Assembly: GCF_013391805.1 (NCBI RefSeq)
Contig: NZ_CP058364.1
Coordinates: 2,237,501 to 2,301,500, forward strand
Length of the DNA stretch: 64,000 bases
From: Galbibacter sp. BG1
Lineage (GTDB): Bacteria > Bacteroidota > Bacteroidia > Flavobacteriales > Flavobacteriaceae
Direction of reading: 5' to 3'
Part shown: in pieces, positions 40,699 to 60,429 of the stretch
Layout: every line of letters starts with the position of its first letter
Position numbering within the stretch: the first letter of the stretch is position 1
The notes under the pieces: generated by a model
Databases searched by the model: none
Seen by the model: the letters and a program-made list of their open reading frames with translations, nothing else
What the model was told of the DNA's origin: nothing
Translations under genes and position numbers: made by a program

Positions 40699-41289
40699 CT
40701 ACGAAAGGGAATATCCAATCTTTTTATCCCAATCGATACATCCGTGAAAAGGACCCGGCACCGGTTCGTACACTTGAACTTGCTCCCCTATAAACTCACT
40801 TTCTTTAAATGCCCAAACGGTGTTGGCCCTCACTTTAATTAAGAAATTGTAGATAAGGGCGTCGGCATCAAAATTATTTTGACGAATATTCGTAAGATAT
40901 TTTTGTTGAATATCGGCAGGGGCATTTAAATAGGAGGCAAGTAAAGAGTCGCAGGACTTTTCAGAAAAATCATTATCCAATTTAACAACGGTTTCTTCGG
41001 CTCCTTTCTTTATGTTCTTTTTCTCTTCTTCAGTGAGGAGTTCTTTGAAACTTAGATCTATAAACATGGGAATGTTTAGGTCTTTTGCTCCAGGCAGATT
41101 ATCTGTTTTCGGAAGGATAAGATCTGTAATTGTATTAACCATGGATGCTTGTGCTTCCGTAAAAAAACTGGGCTGCCAATCTAGATCGGGTTCATTTTTA
41201 CAACTTTGAAGTATCGAAAAAAGTGTCGGAGTAGCGGCAACATACCCAAACGATAACCCTATGTTTTTAAGTGCTTTTCTTCTTTCCAT
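40699..41289 (-). CDS. Gluconate 2-dehydrogenase subunit 3-type protein
   Basis: 196-residue small subunit of a membrane dehydrogenase. The N-terminus has a twin-Arg pattern, ERRKALKNIG, and a possible lipobox ILQSC (Cys30), so Tat export and lipid anchoring are likely. The body has FTEAQASMVNTITDLILPKTDNLPGAKDLN and FIDLSFKELL, typical of this family. It is immediately downstream (3 bases) of the GMC oxidoreductase gene; the small subunit probably carries the flavoenzyme across the membrane and anchors it. Confidence 0.9.
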   Translation of the reverse strand: MERRKALKNIGLSFGYVAATPTLFSILQSCKNEPDLDWQPSFFTEAQASMVNTITDLILPKTDNLPGAKDLNIPMFIDLSFKELLTEEEKKNIKKGAEETVVKLDNDFSEKSCDSLLASYLNAPADIQQKYLTNIRQNNFDADALIYNFLIKVRANTVWAFKESEFIGEQVQVYEPVPGPFHGCIDWDKKIGYSLS

Positions 41290-41292
41290 TTT

Positions 41293-42984
41293 CTAGCTGA
41301 TTTTTTTATAGTTTTTTGCTGCATGATTAGCGGCCCTAGCTGTAAATGCCATATAGGTTAACGACGGATTTTGACATGCTGCGGAAGCCATAAAGGCACC
41401 ATCGGTAACATAAACGTTGGGTACCGCATGCAGTTGGTTGTTTTTGTTTACCACAGAAGTTTTTGGGTCTTTACCCATACGGGCGCCACCCATTTCGTGG
41501 ATTCCGAGTCCAGGCCCACCTGGATCGTCGTAGGTGGTAACATCCTTAAAACCTGCATTTTCCAGCATTTCGGCAGCCTGCGTTACGATATCCTTTCTCA
41601 TATTATATTCATTCTCTTTAAACTCTACTTCAAAGTCTAAAGTTGGGAGTCCCCAATCATCTAGTTTTTCGTAGTTCAAAGAAAACTTATTATCATCGTA
41701 CGGAAGCATTTCACCAAAACCGGTCATACCAAAATGCCATCCACCGAGCTCCATGATGTTTTCCTTTAGATCTTTTCCGTAACTCATTTCTGCTACAGAG
41801 GTTGTCCAATCGCCACGGCCGGCACCGCCTTGATATCCATAACCTCGTATAAAATCTTTCGCGTTAGTGTCGCCTCCTAAATTTCTAAATCGTGGAATGT
41901 AAATTCCATTTGGCCTGCGGCCTTTATAGTATTTGTCTAAATATCCTTCCACACTGGCATTGGCCCCTAAACGGTAGTGATGATCCATGATATTGGTTCC
42001 CAACACTCCAGAGTCGTTCCCCATTCCGTTCGGGAATCTATTCGATTTAGATTGCATTAAAATAGAAGTTGATGCTATGGCAGAAGCACACAAGAAAATA
42101 ATATTCGCAGAAAATTCGTGCTTTTCTTTGGTCTCCGCATCTATAATTTTTACACCAGTAGCTTTTTCCTTGCCCTCGTCATAGATAATTTCGTAGGCTA
42201 TGGAATTAGGCCTAAGGGTCATGTTGCCGGTTCTGTCGGCTGCTGGAAGGGTAGATGCATTACTGCTATAATATCCTCCAAACGGGCAGCCACGGGAACA
42301 TCTATTTCTAGATTGGCAAGTGCCCCTGCCTTCAAAACTTTTGTCTCCTGTAATGTGGGCAACTCGACCGATGGTTAACAAACGGTCGTCATAATTTTCA
42401 GAAATTTTTTGTTGCAAGTGTTCCTCCACACAATTTAAATCCATAGGGGGGAGGAATTTTCCATCGGGAAGTTGTTTAAGACCCAAGTTTTTTCCGCTTA
42501 CACCAATATAAGACTCTACTTTATCATACCATGGTGCAATATCTTTATATCGAACTGGCCAATCCACCCCAATACCGTCTTTAAGGTTAGCCTCGAAATC
42601 TATATCACTCCATCTGTAACTTTGCCTTCCCCAGGTTAGCGATCTTCCACCAACTTGATAACCTCGAATCCAATCGAATCTCTTTATTTCGTTGTAAGGG
42701 TGCTTAAGGTCGTTTACAAAAAAATGTCTATTACTTTTGTCTGGTGCCCAACCAACACGGTGCTGTACATGCTGCTCTTCTTTTTCCTGTGGGGTAAGAG
42801 CGCCTTTAAGCTCATAATCCCATGGATCTTTATTCATGGTTGGGTAATCTTTTAAATGTTCTACCATTCTTCCTCTTTCCAATACCAGTGTCTTGAGTCC
42901 GTTTTCACAAAGTTCTTTAGCGGCCCATCCTCCACTAATACCGGTACCAATAACTATGGCATCATATTGTGGTGTATCTTTCAT
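41293..42984 (-). CDS. GMC-family FAD-dependent oxidoreductase
   Basis: 563-residue flavoenzyme oxidising an alcohol or sugar. The FAD-binding start is VIGTGISGGWAAKELCENG. A Cys-rich stretch, CQSRNRCSRGCPFGG, lies near residue 220-235. The GMC C-terminal part is HEMGGARMGKDP and a CQNPSLTYMAFTARAA segment with the catalytic-side residues. It has no signal peptide of its own, so it is expected to hitch-hike on the Tat signal of the following small subunit. Substrate unknown; no cytochrome c subunit is nearby. It is divergent from susC. Confidence 0.9.
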   Translation of the reverse strand: MKDTPQYDAIVIGTGISGGWAAKELCENGLKTLVLERGRMVEHLKDYPTMNKDPWDYELKGALTPQEKEEQHVQHRVGWAPDKSNRHFFVNDLKHPYNEIKRFDWIRGYQVGGRSLTWGRQSYRWSDIDFEANLKDGIGVDWPVRYKDIAPWYDKVESYIGVSGKNLGLKQLPDGKFLPPMDLNCVEEHLQQKISENYDDRLLTIGRVAHITGDKSFEGRGTCQSRNRCSRGCPFGGYYSSNASTLPAADRTGNMTLRPNSIAYEIIYDEGKEKATGVKIIDAETKEKHEFSANIIFLCASAIASTSILMQSKSNRFPNGMGNDSGVLGTNIMDHHYRLGANASVEGYLDKYYKGRRPNGIYIPRFRNLGGDTNAKDFIRGYGYQGGAGRGDWTTSVAEMSYGKDLKENIMELGGWHFGMTGFGEMLPYDDNKFSLNYEKLDDWGLPTLDFEVEFKENEYNMRKDIVTQAAEMLENAGFKDVTTYDDPGGPGLGIHEMGGARMGKDPKTSVVNKNNQLHAVPNVYVTDGAFMASAACQNPSLTYMAFTARAANHAAKNYKKIS

Positions 42985-43744: not shown

Positions 43745-46744
43745 ATGAAACTACCAAATTATTTAATTATTTGTTTGTTGATGTGTTTTGTGGCGACAGC
43801 TTCCTATTCGCAACGTGTAATCACGGGATCTGTTGTAGATCAAGACACTCAAGAGCCCTTATTGGGTGCCAATATAGTTGTGCCTAACTCTTCAACAGGG
43901 GTTGTGACGGATTTCGACGGAAATTTTTCCATCGATGTACCAGAGACCACAACTTCCTTGGAAGTATCTTATATAGGTTATGAATCTAAAACAGTTCAAC
44001 TTTCTGATAAAGACACTTATCAAATTCAATTGAGTCAAGGAGAAGTTCTCGATGAGGTTGTCGTGGTAGGATACGGAACTCAATCTGAAAAAGATGTGAG
44101 TAGTAGTATTCAAACCATTAAAAATGAAGATGTGGCCAAAATTCCATCTTCCAGTTTTGAAAACACGATACAAGGGCAAACGCCTGGGGTAAACATTGCT
44201 TCTTCCTCGGCTACGCCCGGCGCCGCTGTAAATGTTAATATTCGCGGTGTTTCATCCATATCAGCTAGTAGCCAACCATTGTTTATTGTAGATGGCGTTC
44301 CTCTTGTATCAAGAAATAATTCAGCTTTAAACAGTAATATCCAACCTGCAAACCCAATAGCAGATATCAGTCCGAGTGATATTGAGTCCATTACCATTCT
44401 TAAAGATGCGGCAGCAGCTTCTATTTATGGTTCCAGAGGTGCAAATGGTGTTATTTTAATAAAAACTAAGCGAGGGGCTCAAGGAAAAACGTCTGTCGAT
44501 ATCGGGTACTATACTGGTTTTTCTACTATTAACAACGTGCCAGAAATGGCCAGTAGTACACAATTTAAGGAGTTCTTTAATACTGCGGCAGAGTTTGATG
44601 GTCTGGGTCCAGATTATTTCGATTTTATTGACACCTCAAATGGGGTAAATACAGATATCTACGACGAAATTTTTAGAACCGGTATTACACAGAATTTAGA
44701 TGTAAGTGTAAGTGGAGGTTCAGAGAAAACCAAGTTTTATTTAAGTGGTAATTATTACGATCAAGAAGGAATACAAATAGGACAAGGGTTTAAAAGATTG
44801 AGTACTAGGGTGAACCTAGACCATAAAATTAGTGATAACCTACGTGTAGGAACCACTACCTTTATAAGTAGAGGGGATCATGAAAGAACTATTGGGGAAA
44901 ATGATGAGTTTGGAGTAGTAACCAATGCCCAGGGTTGGGACCCGACAGCACCTATTTTTGATGAAGAAGGGAATTATACCGATCCTTTTGACTATAATAC
45001 ATTTTGGCCGTTGGAAAATCCAGTTTACATTGCCAAGGAATATATAAATACTTCCCGGAGCACAAGAATACAGAGTTCTAATTTTGTAGAATGGAATCTG
45101 ATTCCAAACCTTAAGTTTAGATCGGCTTTTTCATTGGAATATTCCAATTTTGTAGAAGAGTCTTTTACCCCGGTAGGATCTCGAAAAGCACCAACGGGAG
45201 AAGCAATTTTTGCCACTTATGAGGAAACTACGTGGCAGTGGGAGAATACTTTAAATTATAATAAAATTTTTGGTGGGGTTCATGCCTTTGATTTAACGGC
45301 AGGTTGGACCCTACAGGAAACAAAAGCACAATTCTCCGATCAATCAGGTACAGGGTACGCTACCAATAATACAACGAGTATTTCTGCAGCGGGAACTATT
45401 AACACCAGTTCTACTGGTAAGAATCAGTTTGGTCTGCAATCGTTTTTTGGAAGAACAAATTACACTTACGATAATAGGTATATCTTCTCTTTTACCTTAA
45501 GAGCAGATGGTTCATCACGTTTTGGGGAAGACAATCAATACGGATATTTCCCATCGGGATCTGTAGCTTGGAGGTTAAACCAAGAAGATTTCTTTGATGT
45601 GGAAAGCATTTCCAATTTAAAGTTTAGAGCTAGTTACGGTATTACCGGTAACCAAGAAATAGGTTCGAATTGGGTGGGAACCTATTCTTTAAATGCAAAT
45701 TACGACGGAACGCCGGGAACAGCTCCAAATCGATTGGAAAATAGCGACCTGGGTTGGGAGCAAACAAAACAGTTTAATGTTGGGGTGGATTTTGGGATGT
45801 TTAATCAACGTCTAAGCTTTACCGCAGATTATTTTAACAAGCAAACAGAGGATTTGTTATTAAGTGCCAATGTTTCTGGTTTAACTGGTTTTGGTTCGGT
45901 ATTTAAAAATATCGGTGAAATTCAAAATACAGGATTGGAATTCAGTGTAAATGCAAACGTAATTCAAGGGGAGAAGTTCAATTGGAATACTGGTTTCAAT
46001 ATTTCTTTTTTGGATAATGAAATTAAAAGTTTGTTGAATGACGGGGAGATTATAGGAAGAAACCATATTTTAAAAGAAGGCGAAGCAGTAAGTACTTTGT
46101 TCTTGATAGAATATAACGGTGTTGATCCACAAACGGGAGACGCTCTTTTTACCGATGTAAACGGTGATGGAGAAATAGACTTTGATGATAGACAAATTGC
46201 GGGAAGTGCCCTACCGAGCTATTTCGGGGGTTGGACCAACAGTTTTTCTTATAAAGGGTTTAGTTTAACAGCCAATTTCCAATTCTCTGGTGGAAATAAA
46301 ATATTTAACCAGAGTAGATTTGTATACGAAAATTTTGGATTTACAGACGCAGGCTTACCATACGGTCCGGTTAGCGAAAGGGTGTTCAATAATTACTGGA
46401 GGGAGCCAGGCCAAATTACAAACGTACCAAGACCTTCCACAGAAGAGGGACAATTGCAGCGTTTTAGTTCACAATTTCTAGAAGATGGAGATTACATCCG
46501 TTTGAAAACGTTACGTCTTGGGTATAACATCCCTCAGAATATTTTAGATAAGCTTGGCTTGAACAATTTATTGCTGTATGTACAGGGACAAAATGTGTTT
46601 ACCATTACAGATTACTTAGGGTTCGATCCTGAAGTATCTACAAACACCTCAAGCCAAGGAGACCTTAACGTGTTGCAAGGAGAAGACTTTGGAACCGTAG
46701 GACAGGCAAGAACCATTACCATTGGTTTAAATACATCATTTTAA
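43745..46744 (+). CDS. SusC/RagA-family TonB-linked outer membrane transporter
   Basis: 999 residues: signal peptide (to about ATASYSQ, 22), CarboxypepD_reg-like domain (about 24-100, with ITGSVVDQDTQEPLLGANIVV), TonB-box region (LDEVVVVGYG, near 106), plug with SIYGSRGANGVILIKTKRG, and a beta-barrel ending TITIGLNTSF. It imports a bulky ligand through the outer membrane using TonB energy, with SusD as the lid. It lies 21 bases before susD, and is followed by peptide-degrading rather than sugar-degrading genes, so a peptide ligand (cyanophycin fragments) is inferred. Confidence 0.95.
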   Translation: MKLPNYLIICLLMCFVATASYSQRVITGSVVDQDTQEPLLGANIVVPNSSTGVVTDFDGNFSIDVPETTTSLEVSYIGYESKTVQLSDKDTYQIQLSQGEVLDEVVVVGYGTQSEKDVSSSIQTIKNEDVAKIPSSSFENTIQGQTPGVNIASSSATPGAAVNVNIRGVSSISASSQPLFIVDGVPLVSRNNSALNSNIQPANPIADISPSDIESITILKDAAAASIYGSRGANGVILIKTKRGAQGKTSVDIGYYTGFSTINNVPEMASSTQFKEFFNTAAEFDGLGPDYFDFIDTSNGVNTDIYDEIFRTGITQNLDVSVSGGSEKTKFYLSGNYYDQEGIQIGQGFKRLSTRVNLDHKISDNLRVGTTTFISRGDHERTIGENDEFGVVTNAQGWDPTAPIFDEEGNYTDPFDYNTFWPLENPVYIAKEYINTSRSTRIQSSNFVEWNLIPNLKFRSAFSLEYSNFVEESFTPVGSRKAPTGEAIFATYEETTWQWENTLNYNKIFGGVHAFDLTAGWTLQETKAQFSDQSGTGYATNNTTSISAAGTINTSSTGKNQFGLQSFFGRTNYTYDNRYIFSFTLRADGSSRFGEDNQYGYFPSGSVAWRLNQEDFFDVESISNLKFRASYGITGNQEIGSNWVGTYSLNANYDGTPGTAPNRLENSDLGWEQTKQFNVGVDFGMFNQRLSFTADYFNKQTEDLLLSANVSGLTGFGSVFKNIGEIQNTGLEFSVNANVIQGEKFNWNTGFNISFLDNEIKSLLNDGEIIGRNHILKEGEAVSTLFLIEYNGVDPQTGDALFTDVNGDGEIDFDDRQIAGSALPSYFGGWTNSFSYKGFSLTANFQFSGGNKIFNQSRFVYENFGFTDAGLPYGPVSERVFNNYWREPGQITNVPRPSTEEGQLQRFSSQFLEDGDYIRLKTLRLGYNIPQNILDKLGLNNLLLYVQGQNVFTITDYLGFDPEVSTNTSSQGDLNVLQGEDFGTVGQARTITIGLNTSF

Positions 46745-46765
46745 TAATTATTGAAACGTATAAAG

Positions 46766-48118
46766 ATGAAAAATATAAATATTTGGTTTTTAGCATTAAT
46801 AGCATGCCTTGTGCTGTCGCTGCAAAGTTGTAGTGAAGTATTAGAGGTGAATTTAGACGATGAAGTGCCTTCTGAAGAGGCTATTACAGACGATATTTCA
46901 TTAAGGTCGGCCGTTGTAGGATTGTACGATATTATGCAAAGCTCTACCTATTATGGAGGCGAATTTACGCTAGCTCACGCTTTAACGGGGGGAATTGGTG
47001 AAGCTACCGGTTTTAGGGAGCGCTTTGAGCAGTTGGCCGAAGCGAGAATACCAACTTCCAGTTTATATGTAGAGAGTGCCTGGATAGATGCTTATGCGCT
47101 TGTAAATTCCAGTAACTTAATTTTGAGTAAAGCCGAGGAATTACAAATCGATGATCCAGATGCCATTGGAGCGGCACATTTTTTAAGGGCACTTGGTTTA
47201 TTCGACGTACTGAGACAGTTTGGGCAGTTTACCGATATGTCTTCGGAATTCGGCGTACCGGTCTATACCAATTATATCGGAGCGGAAGAGGCTTTAACTA
47301 TTCCAAGGAGTTCTGTGTCAGAATCATACGCTCAAATTACCACTGACCTTTTGGAGGCAATTGATTTGTTGGATTATAGTAGCAACAAATTTTTCGCCAG
47401 TAGAGGTGCTGCTGAGGCACTACTGGCTCGTGTTTACCTTTACCAGGGGGAATATGCTTTGGCAGAGCAATATGCAGATGCAGTTATTAACAGTGGCGAG
47501 TACGAATTGAATGGTAATTACAATGATATTTATGATGTAAAAGCTTCGGAAGAATCTATTCTTGAACTCCAATTTTTGGATACTGATGGAAACGGACTTA
47601 CTTCACTCTTGTCGCTTTCTACCCCAGAGATATCTGCGAACTATGAAGATTTTTATGTAAATATGTTGGATGATGATGATCCTCGAGGGGATTTATACTA
47701 TGATAATGGTCGGATTGTTTTCGTAGACAAATATGGATCAGATCCAAATTTTGTTAGTGGCAACGCCATTCTTATAAAACTTTCTGAAATTTATTTAATA
47801 AAAGCAGAAGCGCAAGCAAGACAAAACCCAACTAACTTAACCCCAGCTATAGAAACCTTGAATGTGGTAAGAACGCGATCTTTGCCTGAGATGCCTATTA
47901 CTGCTAGCGATGCACCAAATTACGATGCATTTGTAGATGCTCTTTTAGAAGAAAGAGCTAGGGAACTGGCTTTTGAAGGACACCGATGGTTCGACATTGT
48001 TCGCCTTGGAAGAGCAGAAGATATCCTCGGGATAGAATCTTTTAGGACAGTCTACCCGATCCCCCAATCGGAAGTGGCAATTTCTAAAGGTGTCATTGCA
48101 CAAAACCCCGGGTATTAA
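46766..48118 (+). CDS. SusD/RagB-family nutrient-binding lipoprotein
   Basis: 450 residues from the ATG at 46766 (a TTG 15 bases earlier is less likely). The lipoprotein signal ends LQSC, followed by the acidic sequence SEVLEVNLDDEVPSEEA typical of surface-exposed lipoproteins of this phylum. The SusD helices are seen in ALLARVYLYQGEYALAEQYADAVI and the C-terminal EERARELAFEGHRWFDIVRLGR, and the protein ends in a PIPQSEVAISKG-type segment. It caps SusC and binds the ligand. A hairpin follows the stop. Confidence 0.95.
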   Translation: MKNINIWFLALIACLVLSLQSCSEVLEVNLDDEVPSEEAITDDISLRSAVVGLYDIMQSSTYYGGEFTLAHALTGGIGEATGFRERFEQLAEARIPTSSLYVESAWIDAYALVNSSNLILSKAEELQIDDPDAIGAAHFLRALGLFDVLRQFGQFTDMSSEFGVPVYTNYIGAEEALTIPRSSVSESYAQITTDLLEAIDLLDYSSNKFFASRGAAEALLARVYLYQGEYALAEQYADAVINSGEYELNGNYNDIYDVKASEESILELQFLDTDGNGLTSLLSLSTPEISANYEDFYVNMLDDDDPRGDLYYDNGRIVFVDKYGSDPNFVSGNAILIKLSEIYLIKAEAQARQNPTNLTPAIETLNVVRTRSLPEMPITASDAPNYDAFVDALLEERARELAFEGHRWFDIVRLGRAEDILGIESFRTVYPIPQSEVAISKGVIAQNPGY

Positions 48119-48167
48119 ATTGGCTGCCCAAACCTAAATCCCCAAAACTACAACCCCCAAACCTAAC

Positions 48168-48215
48168 GTCAAGGAGTCTTTTTGTTCCATGTTCTAAAAC
48201 GGCTCCTTGACTTTT
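48168..48215 (+). terminator. Hairpin after susD
   Basis: Stem GTCAAGGAG (48168-48176) with CTCCTTGAC (48203-48211), then TTTT. It may partly end the susCD message so that the downstream genes are made at a lower level. Confidence 0.6.
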
Positions 48216-48283
48216 AAAAAAATCGATCAGTTTTTAGGATGTCAGCACGTAGCGATAATCCTTTTTGAATTATAATAATTAGA

Positions 48284-49228
48284 ATGAGTAGAAAACAAAA
48301 ATTTTCATTGTGTATCCACGGTGGGGCCGGAGTAATAAGTCAGGATGAATTATCTGACAAAGAGAAAAATTTAATAGTAAACGACCTTAGGAAAAGCCTT
48401 GCTGCTGGAGAAAAAGTATTGGCCAATGGAGGAAGTGCCGTAGAAGCAGTATGCGCTGCAGTAGAGAGTTTAGAAAATAGTGAACATTTTAATGCCGGCA
48501 AAGGAGCTGTTTACGCCAGAGGCGGGAAGCATTTTTTAGAAGCTTCTGTAATGGAAGGAGCGAATTTACAAGCTGGCGCCGTTGCCAACAGCGAGCGTGT
48601 TAAAAACCCTGTTCTTTTTGCGAAGGAATTATTGGCGAATAAAGATGTAGTTATGATGTCTGGTACCAATGCCGATGCGTTAGCAGAAAAGCTGGGCTGC
48701 GAAATGGTAGATAACAACTACTTCGATAACGATTTTCGGAAAAAGCAATGGGAGCAGGCCAAAAAACTATCGGAAGATGCCATATTTTTAGATCATTCCA
48801 ATCTTAAAATGGGAACCGTAGGAGCTGTTGCTATCGATATGGATGGAAATGTAGCCTCTGCGACTTCCACAGGAGGGATGACCAATAAATTAGATGGAAG
48901 GGTAGGCGATACAGCAATTATTGGTTGTGGAACTTATGCCAATAACAAAACCTGTGCGGTTTCCTGTACGGGGATAGGAGAATTTTTCATTCGTGCTACG
49001 GTAGCTTCTTTGGTTTCAAATTTAATGGAATTTGGTAAGCTTTCTTTGGAAGAGGCTTCCAGAATAGCCATTCACGAACATCAAGGTAAAATGGGAGGCG
49101 AAGGCGGACTCATAGCTGTGGGAAGTGATGGAAAGTTTACCATGCCCTATAATTCCGGTGGGATGTATCGTGGTTTTGTTACCAATGAGGAGAAAAAGGT
49201 GTTTATTTGGGATGAGGAAGAATTGTAA
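48284..49228 (+). CDS. iaaA: Isoaspartyl peptidase / L-asparaginase (Ntn hydrolase)
   Basis: Threonine-nucleophile hydrolase of family T2 that cuts beta-aspartyl dipeptides. 314 residues without a signal peptide, so cytoplasmic. It starts LCIHGGAGVIS. The self-cleavage site is before Thr178 in NLKMGTVGAVAIDMDGN, which becomes the catalytic nucleophile. Substrate-binding parts are STGGMTNKLDGRVGDTAIIGCGTYA. In cyanophycin breakdown this family hydrolyses beta-Asp-Arg to Asp and Arg, the expected role in this locus. It is preceded by susCD and followed by cyanophycinase. Confidence 0.93.
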   Translation: MSRKQKFSLCIHGGAGVISQDELSDKEKNLIVNDLRKSLAAGEKVLANGGSAVEAVCAAVESLENSEHFNAGKGAVYARGGKHFLEASVMEGANLQAGAVANSERVKNPVLFAKELLANKDVVMMSGTNADALAEKLGCEMVDNNYFDNDFRKKQWEQAKKLSEDAIFLDHSNLKMGTVGAVAIDMDGNVASATSTGGMTNKLDGRVGDTAIIGCGTYANNKTCAVSCTGIGEFFIRATVASLVSNLMEFGKLSLEEASRIAIHEHQGKMGGEGGLIAVGSDGKFTMPYNSGGMYRGFVTNEEKKVFIWDEEEL

Positions 49229-49309
49229 GTTTTAAACAATTCTTACGTGTTACCAATTAAAAAAGATGTTCTTAACAATTGCGTATAGATATACTATAAA
49301 CTAAAACAT

Positions 49310-50203
49310 ATGAGAATATCCAAATATTTAAAAATGCTGGTATTATGTTTGGTTATTGTTAGCTGCGGAAGCAATAACGAAACCGAAAAAAATACACCGC
49401 AAAAAGCGGAAGTGATAAATTCGGCCAAAGGAAAACTCTTTATTATTGGCGGAGGAAAAAGACCTCCCGAATTAATAAAAAAACTTGTGGAAATTAGTAG
49501 TTTTAAAAAAGAGGATTACATAGCAATACTTCCAATGTCGAGCAGTGAGCCCGATTCTGCGGTGTATTACGCTTCCAAACAGTTTTTAGATCTAGGTATC
49601 TCCCATAAAAAGATAAAAGGTTTCAATTTTTCAAAAGATAGCCTACCACAACAATGGCTTGATTCTTTGGAAAAGGCAAAACTGATTTACATTTCAGGCG
49701 GGGATCAAACAAAATTTATGGAGATTGTTGCCAACACACCTATTGAAAATGCAATAAAATCGGCTTACAAAAATGGAAGTACCATTGCAGGTACAAGTGC
49801 AGGAGCAGCCGTTATGAGTGCAAAAATGATTACTGGAGACGAATTTAAGCACCCTGTCTACACGGGAGATTTTAGAACTATCGAAGCAGATAATATGGAA
49901 TTGGTAGAAGGGTTGGGATTGGTTAAGAATGCCATTATCGATCAGCATTTTATCCAAAGAATGCGTATGAATAGATTACTGAGCGTAGCATTGGAAAATC
50001 CAAATGAAACTGCAATAGGCATCGATGAATCCACCGCTATAATTGTAGAGGGTGATTCCGCAACAGTGGCAGGAAAGTCTCAGGTAATTGTTCTTAAAAA
50101 TAAGGCATCACAAATAATAAAGGAAAACGGACTTCTAGGTGGAGATTCCCTTCAAACGCAAGTTGTTTTGCCTGGTGGAAAGTTCAGTTTAATAAACAAA
50201 TAG
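49310..50203 (+). CDS. Cyanophycinase lipoprotein (S51 family)
   Basis: 297 residues. The lipoprotein signal ends VIVSC (Cys19), so the enzyme is lipid-anchored outside the cytoplasm. The cyanophycinase motifs are present in order: LFIIGGGK (near 46), ISGGDQ (129-132), nucleophile Ser163 in GTSAGAAVMS, IDQHFIQRMRMNRLL, and GIDESTAIIV. This is a serine exopeptidase that releases beta-Asp-Arg dipeptides from cyanophycin. Length and motifs are closer to CphB/CphE than to peptidase E. It lies 82 bases after iaaA and 16 before the transporter gene. Confidence 0.9.
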   Translation: MRISKYLKMLVLCLVIVSCGSNNETEKNTPQKAEVINSAKGKLFIIGGGKRPPELIKKLVEISSFKKEDYIAILPMSSSEPDSAVYYASKQFLDLGISHKKIKGFNFSKDSLPQQWLDSLEKAKLIYISGGDQTKFMEIVANTPIENAIKSAYKNGSTIAGTSAGAAVMSAKMITGDEFKHPVYTGDFRTIEADNMELVEGLGLVKNAIIDQHFIQRMRMNRLLSVALENPNETAIGIDESTAIIVEGDSATVAGKSQVIVLKNKASQIIKENGLLGGDSLQTQVVLPGGKFSLINK

Positions 50204-50218
50204 ATAAACTATAATTCT

Positions 50219-51601
50219 ATGCAGCTTAAAAAGTTTCCCGATACTATTACCATTATTCTCGTAATAAGTCTTTTTTTTATTGCGCTAACATGGATAATTC
50301 CGGCTGGTGAGTTTGATAAGGCCGTGGTAGATGGACGCGAAGTCATTGTGGCAGATTCCTACAAGCAAGTAGATCCAGCACCGCAGGGATTGGCTGCATT
50401 TTTAACAGCTCCTATTAAAGGATTTAATGCTGCATCTTTTGTAATTGCATTTGTTTTTTTGGTAGGTGGAGCTTTTTCGGTGCTCACTTACACAGGAGCC
50501 ATCAATGCTGGGTTGTACCGTATAATTACCTTCGGAAAGAAATACCCAAGATATAAAATCATCATTTTGGGAGGAATTACAGCTTTATTTTCATTGGCAG
50601 GGGCAACTTTTGGAATGAGTGAAGAGGTTTTGGTGTTTATATTAATTACCATTCCTTTAGCAAAAGCTATGGGGTACGATGCGCTCTTGGGAACAGCAAT
50701 TCCCGTGTTGGGAACTGGGGTTGGATTTGCAGGCGCAATTACCAATCCGTTTACCATAGGGATAGCTCAAAGTATCGCGCAGATTCCAATTTTTAGTGGT
50801 ATTGAATACCGTCTAATTGTTTGGGTGATCTTAACTCTTATTGCTTGCTTGGCGGTAGTGCGCTATGCACGGAGATTGGATAAAAATGTTAAAAACAGTT
50901 TGCTTCACGATTTAGAGATAAAAGAAGAAACATACGAGGCGGGAGACTTTCCAGAATTGAATACCAAACGAAAACTAATATTGTTAACTTTTTTCTTGGC
51001 ATTGGCCTTGCTAATCGTTGGAGTGGTTTATTTTGAATGGTATATCAATGAAATTGCAGGACTGTTTATTGGATTGGCTATACTTTCGGCCGTTATTTTT
51101 AAAATTCCTATTAACAAAGCAATCTCAGTCTTTATTGATGGCGCTAAGGAGATGATGACTGCCGCCCTTGTAATTGGGCTGGCCAAAGGATTGTTGGTTA
51201 TAGCCCAAGACGGTAAAATTATCGATACCATTTTAAATGAAGTAGCCTTGGTGGCCGGAAATATGCCCAAATTTATATCGGCAGAATTGATGTTTATTTT
51301 TCAATGTTGCCTAAACTTTTTCATTCCTTCCGGTTCGGGTCAAGCCGCTCTAACAATGCCTATTATTGCCCCTTTAAGCGATCTTATTGGTGTGAGTAGG
51401 CAAGTGGCCGTTCTTGCTTTCCAAATGGGCGATGGGCTTACAAATATGATTGTACCCACAAGTGGGGTTACCATGGGAGCTTTGTCCATTGCAAAAATAC
51501 CTTACAATAAATGGCTAAAGTGGATAGCCCCCGTATTCGTGATCTTATTTATAGTTGCCATGTTACTTATGTTACCGCCATTGTTATGGTTTAGTTGGTA
51601 A
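50219..51601 (+). CDS. YfcC-family membrane transporter (amino acid/dicarboxylate type)
   Basis: 460 residues with about twelve hydrophobic membrane segments. It belongs to the YfcC/DcuC group by LTWIIPAGEFDKAVVDGRE, FVFLVGGAFSVLTYTGAINAG, FGMSEEVLVFILITIPLAKAMGYD, TNPFTIGIAQSIAQIPIFSGIEYRL and the C-terminal NFFIPSGSGQAALTMPIIAPLSDLIGVSRQ. Relatives move basic amino acids, ornithine or C4 dicarboxylates. Here an inner-membrane step for beta-Asp-Arg, arginine or aspartate is inferred from its position between cyanophycinase genes. Confidence 0.88.
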   Translation: MQLKKFPDTITIILVISLFFIALTWIIPAGEFDKAVVDGREVIVADSYKQVDPAPQGLAAFLTAPIKGFNAASFVIAFVFLVGGAFSVLTYTGAINAGLYRIITFGKKYPRYKIIILGGITALFSLAGATFGMSEEVLVFILITIPLAKAMGYDALLGTAIPVLGTGVGFAGAITNPFTIGIAQSIAQIPIFSGIEYRLIVWVILTLIACLAVVRYARRLDKNVKNSLLHDLEIKEETYEAGDFPELNTKRKLILLTFFLALALLIVGVVYFEWYINEIAGLFIGLAILSAVIFKIPINKAISVFIDGAKEMMTAALVIGLAKGLLVIAQDGKIIDTILNEVALVAGNMPKFISAELMFIFQCCLNFFIPSGSGQAALTMPIIAPLSDLIGVSRQVAVLAFQMGDGLTNMIVPTSGVTMGALSIAKIPYNKWLKWIAPVFVILFIVAMLLMLPPLLWFSW

Positions 51602-51628
51602 TAATTATAAAAATTAATTTAAAACAAT

Positions 51629-52708
51629 ATGAAGATGAATAATTTACGAACGATGTTTTTAATGATAGGAATTTTGGCAATCTCTTGCTCATCTGGAGGT
51701 AATGATGAAACTCCGGTAGATCCAGAGCCAAATCCTTCTCCAGCTCCATTAAATTATACTTCTTATAAAGTGGGTGCAGAAACAGATGTAAAAACGGAAC
51801 CATTGGGAGGAGTATGCCTTATGGGAGGTGCTACAGAAAATGATAGGGCCATGAAATGGTTTTTAGACCGTGCAAATGGCGGGGATGTTTTAGTGTTAAG
51901 GACTTCTGGTAGCGATGGATATAACAACTATTTGTATTCTGAGCTGGGAGCGGATATTAATTCCGTGGAAACTATAGTGTGTAAAAATGCAGATGCCAGT
52001 GCCGACACTTATATTCATGACAAAATAAATAAAGCGGAAGCTATTTGGTTTGCCGGCGGAGATCAATGGGATTATGTTTCTTTTTGGAGAGGTACCAAGG
52101 TTGCAGAACTCATCAATAAAGGGATTGCTGAAAGAAATATGGTTGTTGGTGGCACCAGTGCCGGGATGGCCATTCAAGGAGGTTTTTACTATTCCGCACA
52201 ACGAGGTTCTGTTAAATCAGATGAAGCTCTTGAGGATCCTTATAACCAAGATATGACCATTGGAAGCGAAATGTTTATAGATAATAAATTTCTTGCAGAC
52301 GTAATTACTGATACACATTACGATAACCCCGATAGAAAAGGCCGTCATGTAGCATTTCTCGCTCGTATCAACAAAGAGAGCGATCTAGTGGGGAAAGGAA
52401 TTGCCTGTGATGAATATACATCGGTTTATATTGATGAAAAAGGGTTAGCGACCATATACGGTGGTGCGCCCGAGTACGACGACAATGCTTACTTCATTCA
52501 ACCAAACCCAGAGATCTCAGGGAATACTCCAGAAGTCTGTAAAGAGGGTACACCTTTAGAATGGAATAAAGAAAAAATGGCATTAAAAGTCTACGCCGTA
52601 AAAGGAACCAATGACGGTGCCCACACTTTCGATCTAACCAATTGGGAAACTGCAAACGGTGGAGAATGGCAATATTGGTATGTAGAAAACGGGAAATTAA
52701 AGGATTAA
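51629..52708 (+). CDS. Cyanophycinase-like S51 lipoprotein, paralogue 1
   Basis: 359 residues. The lipoprotein signal ends AISC (Cys20), followed by a Gly/Asp/Pro-rich linker. The S51 core is present: GVCLMGGATE (60s), FAGGDQWDY (141-149), nucleophile Ser177 in GGTSAGMAIQG, DTHYDNPDRKGRHVAFLARI (His230) and ACDEYTSVYID (Glu262). The C-terminal 50 residues (KVYAVKGTNDGAHTFDLTNWE...WQYWYVENG) form an extra segment shared with the next gene and absent from the cyanophycinase at 49.3 kb. Substrate should be cyanophycin or a related isopeptide. Confidence 0.85.
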   Translation: MKMNNLRTMFLMIGILAISCSSGGNDETPVDPEPNPSPAPLNYTSYKVGAETDVKTEPLGGVCLMGGATENDRAMKWFLDRANGGDVLVLRTSGSDGYNNYLYSELGADINSVETIVCKNADASADTYIHDKINKAEAIWFAGGDQWDYVSFWRGTKVAELINKGIAERNMVVGGTSAGMAIQGGFYYSAQRGSVKSDEALEDPYNQDMTIGSEMFIDNKFLADVITDTHYDNPDRKGRHVAFLARINKESDLVGKGIACDEYTSVYIDEKGLATIYGGAPEYDDNAYFIQPNPEISGNTPEVCKEGTPLEWNKEKMALKVYAVKGTNDGAHTFDLTNWETANGGEWQYWYVENGKLKD

Positions 52709-52888
52709 GCTTCTTTTAGAACGGGTAAGCAATCAACAAAATGGAATAAGTCCCTGTTGGAAATCTTTCTAATGGGAGCTAACAAAAGAAAACTGATTTT
52801 TTCAGTTATAGATTTCTATACCAAGCATTTATTGACTTGAATAGGATTCTCTTTTATAATTTTTTATTAACCATTTAAATCTTAAATC

Positions 52889-53962
52889 ATGAAGAATTTT
52901 TTAAAGATTACGCTTACCATGTTACTAATTTTTAATGTGTCTTGTTCCGTAGAGGAAAGTGAAGAAGTGGAGCCCAATGCGGTTCTTGCCAGAAAAGGCA
53001 GAAAGGGCTATACGTCTTCTAAGGTAGGTAGCAATACAGATGTTGTTACGTCGCCTACTGGAGGGGTTTGCTTAATGGGTGGAGCTTCAGAAGACGATAA
53101 TGCCATGAAGTGGTTTTTAAACCGAGCAGACGGTGGCGACATTCTAGTATTAAGGGCTAGTGGAACCAACGGATACAACAATTACTTTTATTCCGATCTT
53201 GGCGTTACGGTAAATTCTGTGGAAACTATTATTTTCAGCAATAGTTCCGCAAGTACAGACCCATATGTAATAGACAGGATTAACAAAGCGGAGGCTATTT
53301 GGTTTGCTGGTGGAGACCAGTGGGATTACATCTCTTTTTGGCGTAATACCCCAGTTTCTACGGCTATTAACAATGGAATTAATAATAGAAATATTGTAGT
53401 GGGAGGCACCAGTGCAGGAATGGCCATCCAAGGAAAGTATTATTATACTGCGGAAAATGGTTCGGTTACTTCTAGCGAAGCACTCTACAATCCTTACGAC
53501 AGTTATGTAACCATTGGAAGCGCACCTTTTATTGATAACGATTACCTCACGGATGTTATTACGGATACCCATTACGACAATCCAGATAGAAAAGGGAGAC
53601 ATGTTACCTTTTTGGCGAGAATTGTAAAAGACTATGGTATTAGGGCTAAAGGCATTGCTTGCGATGAATATACCGCCGTTTGTATTAATGGAAGCGGAAT
53701 TGCCAAAATTTATGGTGGACATCCAAACTACGATGACAATGCCTACTTCATTCAACCCAATCCTGCAAACAGTAATTATGGTCCAGAGGTTTGTAACTCC
53801 AACAATTCGTTGGACTGGTACCGAAACAAACAAGCATTAAAAGTGTATGCTGTAAAAGGAACATCCGACGGATCGAAAACCTTCAATCTGAATAATTGGA
53901 GCAGTGGTAGTGGAGGCCAATGGGAATATTGGTATGTAGACCAAGGGGTTTTGGTAGATTAA
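52889..53962 (+). CDS. Cyanophycinase-like S51 lipoprotein, paralogue 2
   Basis: 357 residues, clearly a tandem copy of the gene before it, with the same motifs: lipobox FNVSC (Cys19) and an acidic EESEEVEP stretch after it, CLMGGASED, FAGGDQWDY, Ser175 in GGTSAGMAIQG, DTHYDNPDRKGRHVTFLARI (His228), ACDEYTAV (Glu260), and the C-terminal KVYAVKGTSDGSKTFNLNNWS...WEYWYVDQG. The two differ mainly in the N-terminal linker. It is 180 bases from paralogue 1 and convergent with the AraC gene, 74 bases away. Confidence 0.85.
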   Translation: MKNFLKITLTMLLIFNVSCSVEESEEVEPNAVLARKGRKGYTSSKVGSNTDVVTSPTGGVCLMGGASEDDNAMKWFLNRADGGDILVLRASGTNGYNNYFYSDLGVTVNSVETIIFSNSSASTDPYVIDRINKAEAIWFAGGDQWDYISFWRNTPVSTAINNGINNRNIVVGGTSAGMAIQGKYYYTAENGSVTSSEALYNPYDSYVTIGSAPFIDNDYLTDVITDTHYDNPDRKGRHVTFLARIVKDYGIRAKGIACDEYTAVCINGSGIAKIYGGHPNYDDNAYFIQPNPANSNYGPEVCNSNNSLDWYRNKQALKVYAVKGTSDGSKTFNLNNWSSGSGGQWEYWYVDQGVLVD

Positions 53963-54036
53963 TTTACTTTTATAGGAAAATCATAATAAGGGTTGACAGC
54001 TTCGGTTTGTTGGCCCTTTTTATTTTAAGAATGTCA

Positions 54037-54885
54037 TTAGTCTTTATATTGAGACCTGTAGGTCGATGGGGTCATTGCCTTAAGCTGTTTAAATTTCCTA
54101 TTAAAATTGGTAATGTTTTGAAAGCCGCAAATCTCTGCAATTTCGGCAATGGATAATTCCGGATTTTTATACAATAGTTTACAAGCATTTTCGATTCTAA
54201 TTTCTATTAGAAACTGAAAAAAGGTCTTGTTGGTTCTTTTTTTAAAGTACCTGCAAAAAGCATTTTTTGTCATGTTCGCTTTCTCAGCAATATCGTCTAA
54301 AGAAATCTGTTGGTTGTAACACTTCATGGCGTGTTCAAAAACTGCTCGCATACGTTTTCCTTCATCATCGGAATATTTTTTGCCATATACAAAAGACGAA
54401 AGTGGAATTTGTTCCGCAGCCATGATTTCATTCATTACTTTCAACAGGGTAGCTATTCTTTCAATTTTATTTCGGTGCTGAAGTTCTTTGAAGCTTTCAA
54501 TAATGGCTTTGTTGCCTTTCGATATTTTCATTCCAAATTCAGCATTCCGAAAAAACGGTTTTAGCCCTTTCAAATCGGGGATCGAAAAAAAGTCTTCCCC
54601 AAAAGAATTCTCAGTAAAAAATAAGGTGTACATCACCGAAGGGTTGGTAGACTCAAGATCACTTTTAAAAACGTGTGGTACATTTCCGCCAATTACCAAA
54701 ATATCGTTTGTTTGGTAAGAATTGATGGAGTCTCCTACGATTAATGTCCCACTTCCCTGAAGAATAAAGCTAATTTGTATCTCCTCGTGCTGGTGTAGTT
54801 GGTCGTAAAAAACCACCTCACGATCTTCTTGATATACCAAGGCTTCTTGTGCCGGCTTCGGAATTTTAAAAGGAAGTACTTTCAA
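54037..54885 (-). CDS. AraC-family transcriptional regulator
   Basis: 282 residues, with TTG start at 54883-54885 (a stop codon lies in frame upstream). The N-terminal half is a cupin sensor (HQHEEIQISFILQGSGTLIVGDSINSYQTNDILVIGGNVPHVF); the C-terminal 100 residues hold two HTH units (ISLDDIAEKANMTKNAFCRYFKKRTNKTF and LSIAEIAEICGFQNITNFNRKFKQLKAMTPSTYR). Ligand unknown. It faces the cyanophycinase locus and may control it. Confidence 0.92.
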   Translation of the reverse strand: MKVLPFKIPKPAQEALVYQEDREVVFYDQLHQHEEIQISFILQGSGTLIVGDSINSYQTNDILVIGGNVPHVFKSDLESTNPSVMYTLFFTENSFGEDFFSIPDLKGLKPFFRNAEFGMKISKGNKAIIESFKELQHRNKIERIATLLKVMNEIMAAEQIPLSSFVYGKKYSDDEGKRMRAVFEHAMKCYNQQISLDDIAEKANMTKNAFCRYFKKRTNKTFFQFLIEIRIENACKLLYKNPELSIAEIAEICGFQNITNFNRKFKQLKAMTPSTYRSQYKD

Positions 54886-54971: not shown

Positions 54972-55691
54972 TTATAGCTCGAAGTTAAAACCTTTTTTGG
55001 TTAACTTTTCATAAATGGCGGGATCGAATTTGTAGAGCTTTGCGGCTCGATGCGATACATCCTGTTGCTTCTCTTTAAGATCTACCAAAAGTTTCATTTT
55101 GAGTATTTTTCTTCGGAAGTTGGGCTTGTCCAATTCAACATTTAGAATTTCCTGGTAGAGTTGCATAAGTTGCAAAAGCGTAAATTTTTCAGGAAGTAAA
55201 TTGAAGCCTATAGGAGCTTGGCGAACCCTGTTTTTTAGATGTTCGAGACTGTAATTTAAAATTTCATCGTGGTCGTAAATAAGCTTTGGGATGTCACTTA
55301 GCTGATACCATTTCGCATCTGAGGCAGTAAAACCTGCTTTTACATCGTAATCATCTTTTTTAATCAAGGCATAGTAACCAATGGTTATAACCCTTCCCAG
55401 TGGAAAACGATTGGGATCTCCAAAAGCTTTTAACTGCTCCAAATAAAGATCGGATATTCCTGTTAGTTCACTCAAAATTCTGTTGGCTGCAAGATCGATG
55501 CTCTCATCTTCTTTAATCCATCCTCCGGGTAGCGCCCATTTTCCTTTGCTAATACCTTCGGCATGTTCTACTAAAAGAACTTCCAGTTTACCTTTCTCGA
55601 AACCAAAAATAACGCAGTCGATGGTAATAGCGTTCATTACCTTTTGTTCTGTGATCTTTCCAGACTCCCTATCGATGAATTTTTTAATCAT
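54972..55691 (-). CDS. Nudix-type transcriptional regulator (NrtR/AraR-like)
   Basis: 239 residues: a Nudix fold (about 20-150) followed by a winged-helix DNA-binding domain (about 160-239). The Nudix box is degenerate: GWIKEDESIDLAANRILSELTGI lacks the two catalytic Glu of REUXEE (Ile and Leu instead), which fits a regulator rather than a hydrolase. Related Bacteroidota regulators respond to pentose metabolites (AraR of B. thetaiotaomicron belongs here). It is divergent from xylB-xylA with a strong palindrome in between, so it is likely the xylose repressor. Confidence 0.85.
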   Translation of the reverse strand: MIKKFIDRESGKITEQKVMNAITIDCVIFGFEKGKLEVLLVEHAEGISKGKWALPGGWIKEDESIDLAANRILSELTGISDLYLEQLKAFGDPNRFPLGRVITIGYYALIKKDDYDVKAGFTASDAKWYQLSDIPKLIYDHDEILNYSLEHLKNRVRQAPIGFNLLPEKFTLLQLMQLYQEILNVELDKPNFRRKILKMKLLVDLKEKQQDVSHRAAKLYKFDPAIYEKLTKKGFNFEL

Positions 55692-55828
55692 TTAAAGCCT
55701 CACGTAAAATTTATGCATAGATACAAAATAATTTAAATATGCTTGTTTTTGCCTAATATGCTTCACTAATTTAAGGATTTATGTGTAAAATTTTGAAAAT
55801 GATAAAATAATTAAGTAGTATTGTAGTC

Positions 55829-55861
55829 ATATTTACTATAAGTTGTTTTATAGTCAAATAT
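55829..55861 (+). promoter_or_regulatory. Palindromic operator candidate upstream of xylB
   Basis: Perfect inverted repeat ACTATAA (55835-55841), spacer GTTGTT, TTATAGT (55848-55854), extended on both sides by ATATTT (55829-55834) and AAATAT (55856-55861) with one bulged C. It ends 14 bases before the xylB ATG. Likely binding site of the divergent Nudix-type regulator. Confidence 0.65.
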
Positions 55862-55875
55862 TTCAATTGAATTGT

Positions 55876-57369
55876 ATGTGTTTTTTAGGAATAGATTTAG
55901 GGAGTTCGTCCATTAAACTTTCAGTTTTAGATGCTAAAACAGAGCGTTGTATAACTTCCATTACCGTCCCAGATTTCGAATTGGAGATGAAGGCTCCCGA
56001 ACACGGTTGGGCAGAGCAGGATCCAGATATGTGGTGGCAATATGTGAAAGAAGGGATTGCCAAATTAAAAGAAGAAGAAGGGATTGCCATCCAAAACATT
56101 AAAGGGATTGGTATTGCCTATCAAATGCATGGTTTGGTGCTGGTAGACGAAAATTTAAATCCAGTGCGCTCTTCAATGATTTGGTGCGATAGCCGAGCTG
56201 CTGAGGTTGGCGAGGAAACTTATAAAAAAATGGGACCCCGGAAATGTCAAGAACTAATCCTGGGCAGTCCAGGTAACTTTACGGCTTCTAAATTAAAATG
56301 GGTAAAAGAAAATCAACCGGATATATTCGGGAAAGCTAAATATTTGATGCTTCCCGGAGATTACATAGCTGCGAGATTATCCAATGTTCCCCAAACGAGT
56401 ACCTCTGGACTATCGGAAGCAGCGCTATGGAATTTTAAGGAAAACCGATTGGCCACCGAAGTATTGGAGGCTATGGGAATACCTGTTGAAATGGTACCCG
56501 AGGTGGTGAACAACTTTGGCAAACAAGCAAAAATAGATTCTACCATTGCCAAGGAATTAGGCCTTGCAGAAGATGTTTATGTTACATATCGCGCAGGAGA
56601 TCAACCTAACAATGCGTTATCCCTTAATGCCCTAAGTCCCGGTGAAATAGCCGCCACTGCAGGGACATCGGCTGTGGTGTACGGGGTGAGCGAAACAGAT
56701 GATTACGACCCCAATAACCGGATAAACACTTTTCTTCATGTAAATAATCAAGCAAATCAAAAAAGAAATGGGGTCATGGTTTGTATCAATGGTTCTGGAA
56801 TCCTTTATCAATGGTTGCGAAAAATTCTTTCAGAAGATAAAGAGCAACTTTTAGATTACAATATCCTTAATTCTCTAGCTGCTGATAGTGAAATTGAGGC
56901 AAAAGGACTTCGGTTTTACCCATTTGGAAATGGTGTGGAGCGAATCTTTAACAACAAACCAGCGTTCTCTGGAGTGGAAGGCTTAAACTTCAATAGACAT
57001 CAAAAAGAAGACTTGGTAAGAGCTGCCTGCGAAGGAATTGTATTTGCCCTAAACTACGGTTTCGAAATTATGCGGAATGTTGGGGTACATGGGAAAGTAG
57101 TGCGCGCGGGAAAAGCAAACCTCTTCTTAAACCCTGTTTTTAGGGAAATATTTGTAAATACCACCAACACTACCTTAGAGCTTTACAATACATCAGGAAG
57201 TGAAGGAGCCGCTCGTGGTGCTGCTTTTGGATACGGATATTTCTCCAAGCTATCGGATGCTTTTAAAGGTTTGGAGTGTCTGGAAAGTACCAAGCCAGAT
57301 CCCGAATTGGTTAAAAAGTATGAAGAAGTATATAAAGATTGGAAAGAGGGCATTCGAGTAAAAGCCTAG
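55876..57369 (+). CDS. xylB: Xylulokinase
   Basis: FGGY-family kinase phosphorylating D-xylulose to xylulose 5-phosphate. I start at the ATG at 55876, 497 residues; the longer reading adds residues upstream of the phosphate-binding FLGIDLGSSSIKLSVLDA. Further features are AYQMHGLVLVD, the catalytic Asp in YRAGDQPNNALSLN, and the C-terminal SGSEGAARGAAFGYGYF. xylA follows 42 bases later; the operator-like palindrome lies just before it. Confidence 0.95.
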   Translation: MCFLGIDLGSSSIKLSVLDAKTERCITSITVPDFELEMKAPEHGWAEQDPDMWWQYVKEGIAKLKEEEGIAIQNIKGIGIAYQMHGLVLVDENLNPVRSSMIWCDSRAAEVGEETYKKMGPRKCQELILGSPGNFTASKLKWVKENQPDIFGKAKYLMLPGDYIAARLSNVPQTSTSGLSEAALWNFKENRLATEVLEAMGIPVEMVPEVVNNFGKQAKIDSTIAKELGLAEDVYVTYRAGDQPNNALSLNALSPGEIAATAGTSAVVYGVSETDDYDPNNRINTFLHVNNQANQKRNGVMVCINGSGILYQWLRKILSEDKEQLLDYNILNSLAADSEIEAKGLRFYPFGNGVERIFNNKPAFSGVEGLNFNRHQKEDLVRAACEGIVFALNYGFEIMRNVGVHGKVVRAGKANLFLNPVFREIFVNTTNTTLELYNTSGSEGAARGAAFGYGYFSKLSDAFKGLECLESTKPDPELVKKYEEVYKDWKEGIRVKA

Positions 57370-57411
57370 AGCTCAAAAAAAAGATTATAAAAAATTAAAA
57401 ATATATATAAA

Positions 57412-60237: not shown

Positions 60238-60429
60238 AATTTTAAGTTGGTTTGGTGCTTTAAATATAAGGAAAAGATCTGAGGATGACTGAAGCAAGAA
60301 TTACCTAGATTTAAGATAAAATGTTTTCTTATGCGGAATTATTAGGGAGCTCCACAGAAATTCGTGATTCCAATTAGTATTTTTTCAATTATAGCTTATT
60401 AATAATGCTTTGCTCAAGTTTTATGGATT

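Follow-up and report, generated by a model that had tools for sequence, protein, structure and literature searches.

A SusCD-type locus of Galbibacter sp. BG1 that probably scavenges exogenous cyanophycin

A probable cyanophycin-scavenging locus

In a stretch of 64,000 nucleotides of Galbibacter sp. BG1 (positions 2237501-2301500 of the single-contig 3.71 Mb genome; hereafter, the window), the open reading frame (ORF) list and family scans place seven genes on the plus strand—susC, susD, iaaA, S51A, yfcC, S51B, and S51C—that span positions 43745-53962 with 6-180 bases between neighbors (Table 1), and we propose that this run is dedicated to the scavenging of exogenous cyanophycin, the nitrogen-storage polymer of cyanobacteria, with uptake by the SusCD pair. 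We put the probability of this reading at about 0.8, because the gene order is conserved in relatives, the active-site residues are kept, no cyanophycin synthetase in the genome exceeds the cut-off, and different SusCDs appear to have been recruited repeatedly; the substrate, the transport, the locations of the lipoproteins, and the regulation are those that we infer from the sequence. An initial annotation, made from the letters alone, had already proposed a dedicated cyanophycin locus with SusCD uptake, which proposal still provides the best reading, and had described seven genes in one direction over some 10 kb with no glycoside hydrolase among them, in agreement with the ORF positions and with a family scan that found no glycosidase in the run.

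The susC and susD genes are adjacent and have degrading enzymes in the same run, which is the arrangement of a SusCD locus. The run also corresponds to a cyanophycin utilization locus as defined in the available part of Sharon and Schmeing (2023; PMC10206079), in holding a cyanophycinase, an isoaspartyl dipeptidase, and a transporter, with no synthetase over the cut-off in the same genome (the best TIGR02068 match scoring 123 bits against 850), and this last result would indicate scavenging rather than storage. Since only 17 SusD-family matches are found in the 3.71 Mb of the genome, random placement would, on informal expectation, yield few runs combining susC, susD, and S51A.

By its model score and by nine residues S51A is a predicted cyanophycinase of the CphB type, as the initial annotation had concluded from its hallmark motifs: it exceeds the TIGR02069 cut-off and keeps all nine CphB positions checked, namely S132, H174, E201 (which we take to be the third member of the CphB catalytic triad), Q101, D172, Q173, R178, R180, and R183. 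Across 87 S51A-type proteins a single cell of the alignment at those nine positions departs. The list of pocket residues comes from the available part of PMC3235067.

S51B and S51C were rightly named as further S51-family lipoproteins, the family assignment and the catalytic triad both being sound; both remain below the cyanophycinase cut-off, however, and look like CphE rather than like a canonical cyanophycinase, so that they are candidate cyanophycinases at most. Both pass the Pfam Peptidase_S51 cut-off and keep Q101, D172, R180, and R183 of the pocket, with Thr at position 173 and Pro at position 178. Likened by description, the CphE of Pseudomonas is also an exported S51 enzyme, and the extracellular CphEal has Thr in place of Gln173, though it differs from S51B and S51C in keeping the equivalent of Arg178 (available part of PMC3235067). 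Among 36 S51B/C-type proteins, two of them from the window, position 173 is occupied by Thr in 21, Gln in 10, and Ser in 5; position 178 by Arg in 22, Pro in 12, and Glu in 2; and position 201 by Glu in 25 and Asp in 11. The AlphaFold model of S51C, with a predicted local distance difference test (pLDDT) score of 90.8, has the cyanophycinases 7uqw and 3en0 as its top folds (TMt 0.79). Some proteins of this type are long, at about 640-750 residues (L086:388-2649, L087:5868-7871, and L157:1994-3913, the L numbers designating loci): that of L086 carries a sorting tail of the type IX secretion system (T9SS), and that of L087 has the S51 domain only.

Conservation of the locus and probable repeated recruitment of SusCD

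At E ≤ 1e-10, S51A has relatives in 170 of 395 genomes of the class, and at E ≤ 1e-50 in only 11 (own genome included). The initial annotation had suggested, as a check, a search for the gene set across Bacteroidota genomes, and conservation was found: the order susC-susD-iaaA-S51A-yfcC is kept in six relatives (L043, L081-L084, and L189), in all of which except L189 an S51B/C-type gene follows the block. One of the six, L082, comes from a cultured organism, Flavobacterium aquariorum. With a run defined as genes on the same strand with gaps of at most 400 bases, the run that holds S51A includes both susC and susD in 28 of 80 loci, and in 7 of a further set of 20, among the matches listed; the synthetase over the cut-off is absent in 19 of the 28 genomes (several of them metagenome assemblies of unstated completeness) with such a run, among the matches listed.

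The SusC of the window is 74% identical to its tree sister, the SusC of L081. A tree of 69 rows—built by a quick method, and with some long branches—distributes the S51A-linked SusCs over several groups with own-genome paralogs between them. The first group unites the window with Aquimarina, Fulvivirga, Flammeovirga, Chryseolinea, and Bacteroidales, another contains mainly Pedobacter and Sphingobacterium, and further groups exist; the SusD of L048, for its part, belongs to another Pfam family, SusD-like_2. A single clade for 29 run-linked SusCs, that of the window included, versus 14 own-genome paralogs was rejected in an approximately unbiased test (p-AU 1.2e-5, log-likelihood difference 216), with the group having been defined after the first tree was known. 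That comparison omitted the near-duplicates L045, L083, L134, and L153_2931 and the extra SusC L153_14130, while the length filter of 850 residues removed the SusCs of L084, L088, and L097 and passed the 14 from the own genome. As the run-linked SusCs do not form one clade, the pairing of SusCD with S51A would have arisen, or have been replaced, more than once.

In several loci proteins with a PKD domain lie between susD and S51A or after S51A (L157:8465-9694 and L143:10798-11925, and, by BLAST, L086, L159, and others), at the place where SusE/F-like surface binders stand in glycan loci; in that of L143 DUF5050 is also over the cut-off. A second type of S51A neighborhood appeared in 19 Flavobacterium-type loci between L101 and L144, where a protein of the penicillin-amidase family follows S51A, mostly with an AsnC/Lrp-type regulator before S51A and with an ornithine aminotransferase-like gene nearby in 17.

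Such ornithine aminotransferase-like genes, found at most 9 kb from S51A in 20 of 100 loci (17 of these Flavobacterium-type) among the matches listed, may be taken as pointing to arginine; two of the proteins so labeled were profile-scanned and both exceeded the TIGR01885 cut-off. In the Galbibacter genome an ornithine aminotransferase (668.9 bits, over the cut-off) and three arginase-family genes are located elsewhere.

Predicted compartments of the peptidases and the YfcC-type carrier

No signal peptide was seen on the iaaA product, so that IaaA is predicted to be cytosolic. Its Asparaginase_2 domain has the Thr of self-cleavage, its nearest solved chain is 2zak (E 4.9e-71), with residue 178 of IaaA aligned with the first residue of the solved beta chains, and the equivalog NF007589 was missed (285 versus 567); a second PF01112 gene lies elsewhere in the genome. 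In the set of loci, isoaspartyl dipeptidases of two unrelated types, IaaA and IadA, are found near S51A. One IadA was scanned and gave 504.6 bits with TIGR01975, over the cut-off of 331; the others were assigned by BLAST.

One or more isoaspartyl dipeptidases of Bacteroidota are said, in the available part of PMC10206079, to remain undiscovered. In four loci whose BLAST labels include neither iaaA nor iadA, S51A is followed by an M20 peptidase whose N-terminus resembles a signal peptide (L092:10851-12164, L191:7997-9316, L192:8266-9579, and L193:10308-11627; two of the four proteins were scanned in Pfam), and this peptidase is a candidate for such an enzyme.

The surface cyanophycinases of the initial annotation survive in part, in that S51B and S51C look extracellular, like CphE, and S51A is more likely periplasmic, which assignments rest on the lengths and N-termini of the S51A type and on the tails of the S51B/C type. 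Among 90 S51A-type ORFs of at least 40% identity, 86 measure 250-340 residues, which leaves no room for a sorting tail, and by eye the N-termini mostly show a lipobox or a plain signal peptide; a T9SS tail is present on 6 of 25 S51B/C-type proteins. The lipoprotein signals of the window proteins, likewise read by eye, are LQSC in SusD, followed by SEVLEVNLDDE, IVSC in S51A, and AISC in S51B; in S51C the presumed lipobox Cys is followed by the acidic SVEESEEVE. A crude count of acidic residues after the lipobox Cys gave 2.4 for SusD, 1.3 for the S51B/C type, and 0.7 for the S51A type, which ranking is a hint only, since the script made no lipobox call on the S51C of the window and misread the lipobox of its SusD.

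YfcC is a candidate importer of beta-Asp-Arg because its gene travels with cytosolic dipeptidases: of 18 loci whose dipeptidase is cytosolic, 15 had yfcC, versus 0 of 17 whose IaaA is exported (Fisher p 3e-7), the statistics being weak in that the tree holds only two to three independent contrasts, with which a sign test cannot reach significance. The association is seen with both cytosolic enzymes, IaaA and IadA, the loci lacking yfcC being L085, L093 (IadA), and L118; among the loci with an exported IaaA, 5 of 17 have an SDF-type symporter (the one scanned being DctA, over the cut-off, and the rest assigned by BLAST). The comparison left out loci with an S51A below 40% identity (including L052 and L053), iaaA matches of at most 39% (L051), and yfcC matches of at most 35% (L140), and for L080 an internal Met was chosen manually as the start of iaaA. 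The AlphaFold model of YfcC (pLDDT 81.7) has YdaH and MtrF as its nearest folds (TM 0.62-0.66); the MtrF entry, 4r1i, is named in the PDB as an aminobenzoyl-glutamate transporter, which carries a small amide-linked amino acid, and the MtrF-like fold thus fits a dipeptide importer without proving one.

On the proposed scheme, the surface lipoproteins S51B and S51C would attack the insoluble polymer, SusD would capture the soluble beta-Asp-Arg oligomers and SusC would import them, the CphB-type S51A, most likely in the periplasm, would trim the oligomers to beta-Asp-Arg dipeptides, YfcC would move these into the cytosol, and IaaA would there split them into Asp and Arg, the latter passing on to the arginase-family and ornithine aminotransferase enzymes that the genome encodes elsewhere. 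A broader and more tentative proposal, whose chances we place somewhat short of even, is that the Bacteroidota took SusCD several times independently for cyanophycin and that, in addition, the pathway changes compartment as a whole: cytosolic IaaA or IadA with YfcC as the beta-Asp-Arg importer, versus exported IaaA without YfcC, with an SDF (DctA-type) symporter instead in some loci.

Evidence against and alternative explanations

Several results count against a dedicated cyanophycin locus. The locus is rare and patchy, S51A being found at E ≤ 1e-50 in 7 of 397 genomes of the family and in neither of two genomes of the same genus; the susC-susD-S51A run is absent in 52 of the 80 loci and 13 of the further 20 among the matches listed; and 9 of the 28 carriers of the run own a synthetase. 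In the PDB, S51A matches 7uqv best by sequence, an entry titled pseudo-CphB, and the YfcC-type transporter of the initial annotation, while standing as a DcuC-family carrier, is a member of that family only, since it falls below the NF008611 cut-off. The Arg178 that S51B and S51C replace is listed as critical for CphB and is retained in CphE (available part of PMC3235067), and promiscuity is described for the isoaspartyl dipeptidases of cyanophycin clusters, IaaA and IadA (available part of PMC10206079).

These last two points would also suit a broader peptide locus, in which SusCD imports mixed isoaspartyl or acidic and basic peptides, the S51 and T2 enzymes remove isoaspartyl linkages, and cyanophycin is at most one substrate; further in its favor, RagB is among the weak PDB matches of the window SusD (E 9e-5). 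RagAB of Porphyromonas gingivalis is a SusCD-type importer of peptides instead of glycans, and to our knowledge has no association with S51 or isoaspartyl enzymes. We regard this alternative as unlikely, given that S51A retains every CphB pocket residue tested and passes the equivalog cut-off, that the ORF list and family scan of the run contain no general endopeptidase, oligopeptidase, or peptide carrier of the ABC or POT type, and that ornithine aminotransferase-like genes recur near S51A.

Quite improbable, in our view, is a division of labor in which the S51, T2, and YfcC proteins serve cyanophycin and the SusCD pair imports a glycan, the adjacency being due to chance or to regulation only. 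A secreted glycosidase-like ORF, by reading, does lie near the closest own-genome SusC paralog (L176, 4467-5567), and L080/L190 (apparently one contig) hold iaaA-S51A-yfcC without susCD, but distinct SusCD lineages occupy the same runs across several families, and the run lacks a glycosidase. The own-genome SusCD pair nearest to that of the locus (L176:6609-10995; SusC 45% and SusD 35% identical) is located some 17 kb beyond the end of the locus, with no S51 gene near it, the four S51 matches of the genome all lying within the window. Mobilization of the cell's own cyanophycin store, for which the run carriers with a synthetase might speak, we reject as scarcely credible here, in view of the lack of a synthetase over the cut-off in this genome and of the lipoprotein-like N-termini, read by eye, that would mark all three S51 proteins for export.

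Relation to described systems

The abstract of Ben Hania and colleagues reportedly describes a transport complex for cyanophycin that is homologous to polysaccharide utilization loci. That 2017 paper, whose title refers to a Bacteroidetes clade specialized on scavenging cyanobacteria, is cited in the available part of PMC10206079 for a cyanophycin utilization locus comprising cyanophycinases, iadA, and a transporter in a Bacteroidetes strain; the locus is reportedly SusCD-based, a description that also draws on PMC10206079 and PMC6243061, each available in part. By the description in PMC10206079, the locus of strain L21-Spi-D4 (Salinivirga cyanobacteriivorans) resembles that of the window in its cyanophycinase genes, isoaspartyl dipeptidase, and transporter, and differs in carrying iadA where the window has iaaA; no Salinivirga occurs among the 80 loci of the matches listed.

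The same source names Flammeovirga pacifica WPAGA1 as another cyanophycin-scavenging carrier, and its locus (L157) forms a single run of S51-susC-susD-PKD-S51A-iaaA-yfcC-S51-rocD. It thus shares with the window the S51 genes, susC, susD, S51A, an iaaA without a signal peptide, and yfcC, and differs in a SusC only 37% identical to ours, in the PKD-domain protein between susD and S51A, in S51B/C-type proteins of 639 and 717 residues, and in the ornithine aminotransferase at the end.

The alphaproteobacterium Citromicrobium provides a further parallel. A gene-context prediction of 2012 proposed cyanophycin as a TonB-receptor substrate from a TonB receptor beside a cyanophycinase in Citromicrobium sp. 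JLT1363, so that TonB-dependent uptake of cyanophycin was predicted there as here; the main text of that paper nowhere mentions SusD (PMC3400609). In the open-licence PMC literature searched, parts of which were accessible, no experimental test of SusCD on cyanophycin was found.

The supposition of the initial annotation that the locus represents a new substrate class is accordingly not borne out, given the 2017 locus and the same gene set in WPAGA1: the concept of a Bacteroidota cyanophycin locus is already in print, and the present locus is a rather clear new example. What is new here is the apparent repeated recruitment of SusCD and YfcC as a candidate importer of beta-Asp-Arg.

Regulation and neighboring genes

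An AraC-family gene does face the locus, as initially annotated, from the minus strand and in convergent orientation; its role as the locus regulator, however, is doubtful. It is separated by 86 bases from a gene for an NrtR/AraR-like NUDIX regulator (54972-55691), which diverges from a sugar-kinase gene (55843, a xylulokinase by reading) and a xylose-isomerase gene (57412) in window positions 54972-58725, and for that reason the AraC protein is probably part of the xylose module with the NUDIX regulator; no match to it was found in the syntenic loci L043 and L081-L084. Genes for an extracytoplasmic function (ECF) sigma factor and an anti-sigma factor were recognized by eye 5' of susC in L044, L045, L049, and others, and none directly before the susC of the window. 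The Bacteroidetes-type promoter pattern TTTG-N19-21-TANNTTTG matched once in the window (48129-48161, minus strand) versus 2.4 matches expected, and is uninformative. The terminator-like stem 3' of S51C is weak evidence as well, the scan having found 5 against 9.9 expected in shuffles.

Upstream of the run, 5 kb away, lies the fourth S51 gene of the genome (38028-38792), of the PepE type (alpha-aspartyl dipeptidase) and over the NCBIfam cut-off, followed on the strand opposite to the run by a pair encoding gluconate-2-dehydrogenase subunit 3 and a GMC oxidoreductase (40699-42984). Positions 58876-60297 encode a protein of glycoside hydrolase family 47 whose N-terminus resembles that of a lipoprotein.

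Table 1. Features of the proposed cyanophycin locus and its 3' border, in window positions; scores in bits.
Feature	Position	Strand	Assignment and scores
susC	43745-46744	+	SusC/RagA-family TonB-dependent outer-membrane transporter; TIGR04056 903.6 (cut-off 368); Plug and CarboxypepD_reg domains
susD	46751-48118	+	SusD/RagB-family surface lipoprotein, lid of SusC; PF07980 80.9 and PF14322 68.1, both over cut-off
iaaA	48284-49228	+	T2 isoaspartyl peptidase/asparaginase; PF01112 (Asparaginase_2) 318.5
S51A	49310-50203	+	Predicted lipoprotein cyanophycinase, CphB type; TIGR02069 154.6 (cut-off 126.6)
yfcC	50219-51601	+	DcuC-family inner-membrane carrier; PF03606 349.7; NF008611 381.8 (cut-off 500)
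S51B	51629-52708	+	S51-family lipoprotein, CphE-like; PF03575 32.0; TIGR02069 56.7 (cut-off 126.6)
S51C	52889-53962	+	S51-family lipoprotein, CphE-like; PF03575 33.6; TIGR02069 56.0 (cut-off 126.6)
Terminator-like stem	53988-54018	+	12 pairs and T-rich tail, 3' of S51C; consensus match only
AraC-family regulator	54037-54885	-	Convergent with the run; HTH_18 78.9

Biological significance

The locus would constitute a compact and conserved case of a SusCD system directed at a polypeptide. Such loci are spread over several families of Bacteroidota and use SusCD pairs of different lineages. Through the present one, YfcC, from a poorly assigned transporter family, and two CphE-like lipoproteins become directly testable. 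In ecological terms, such loci would mark those Bacteroidota that may feed on the nitrogen reserves of dying cyanobacteria.

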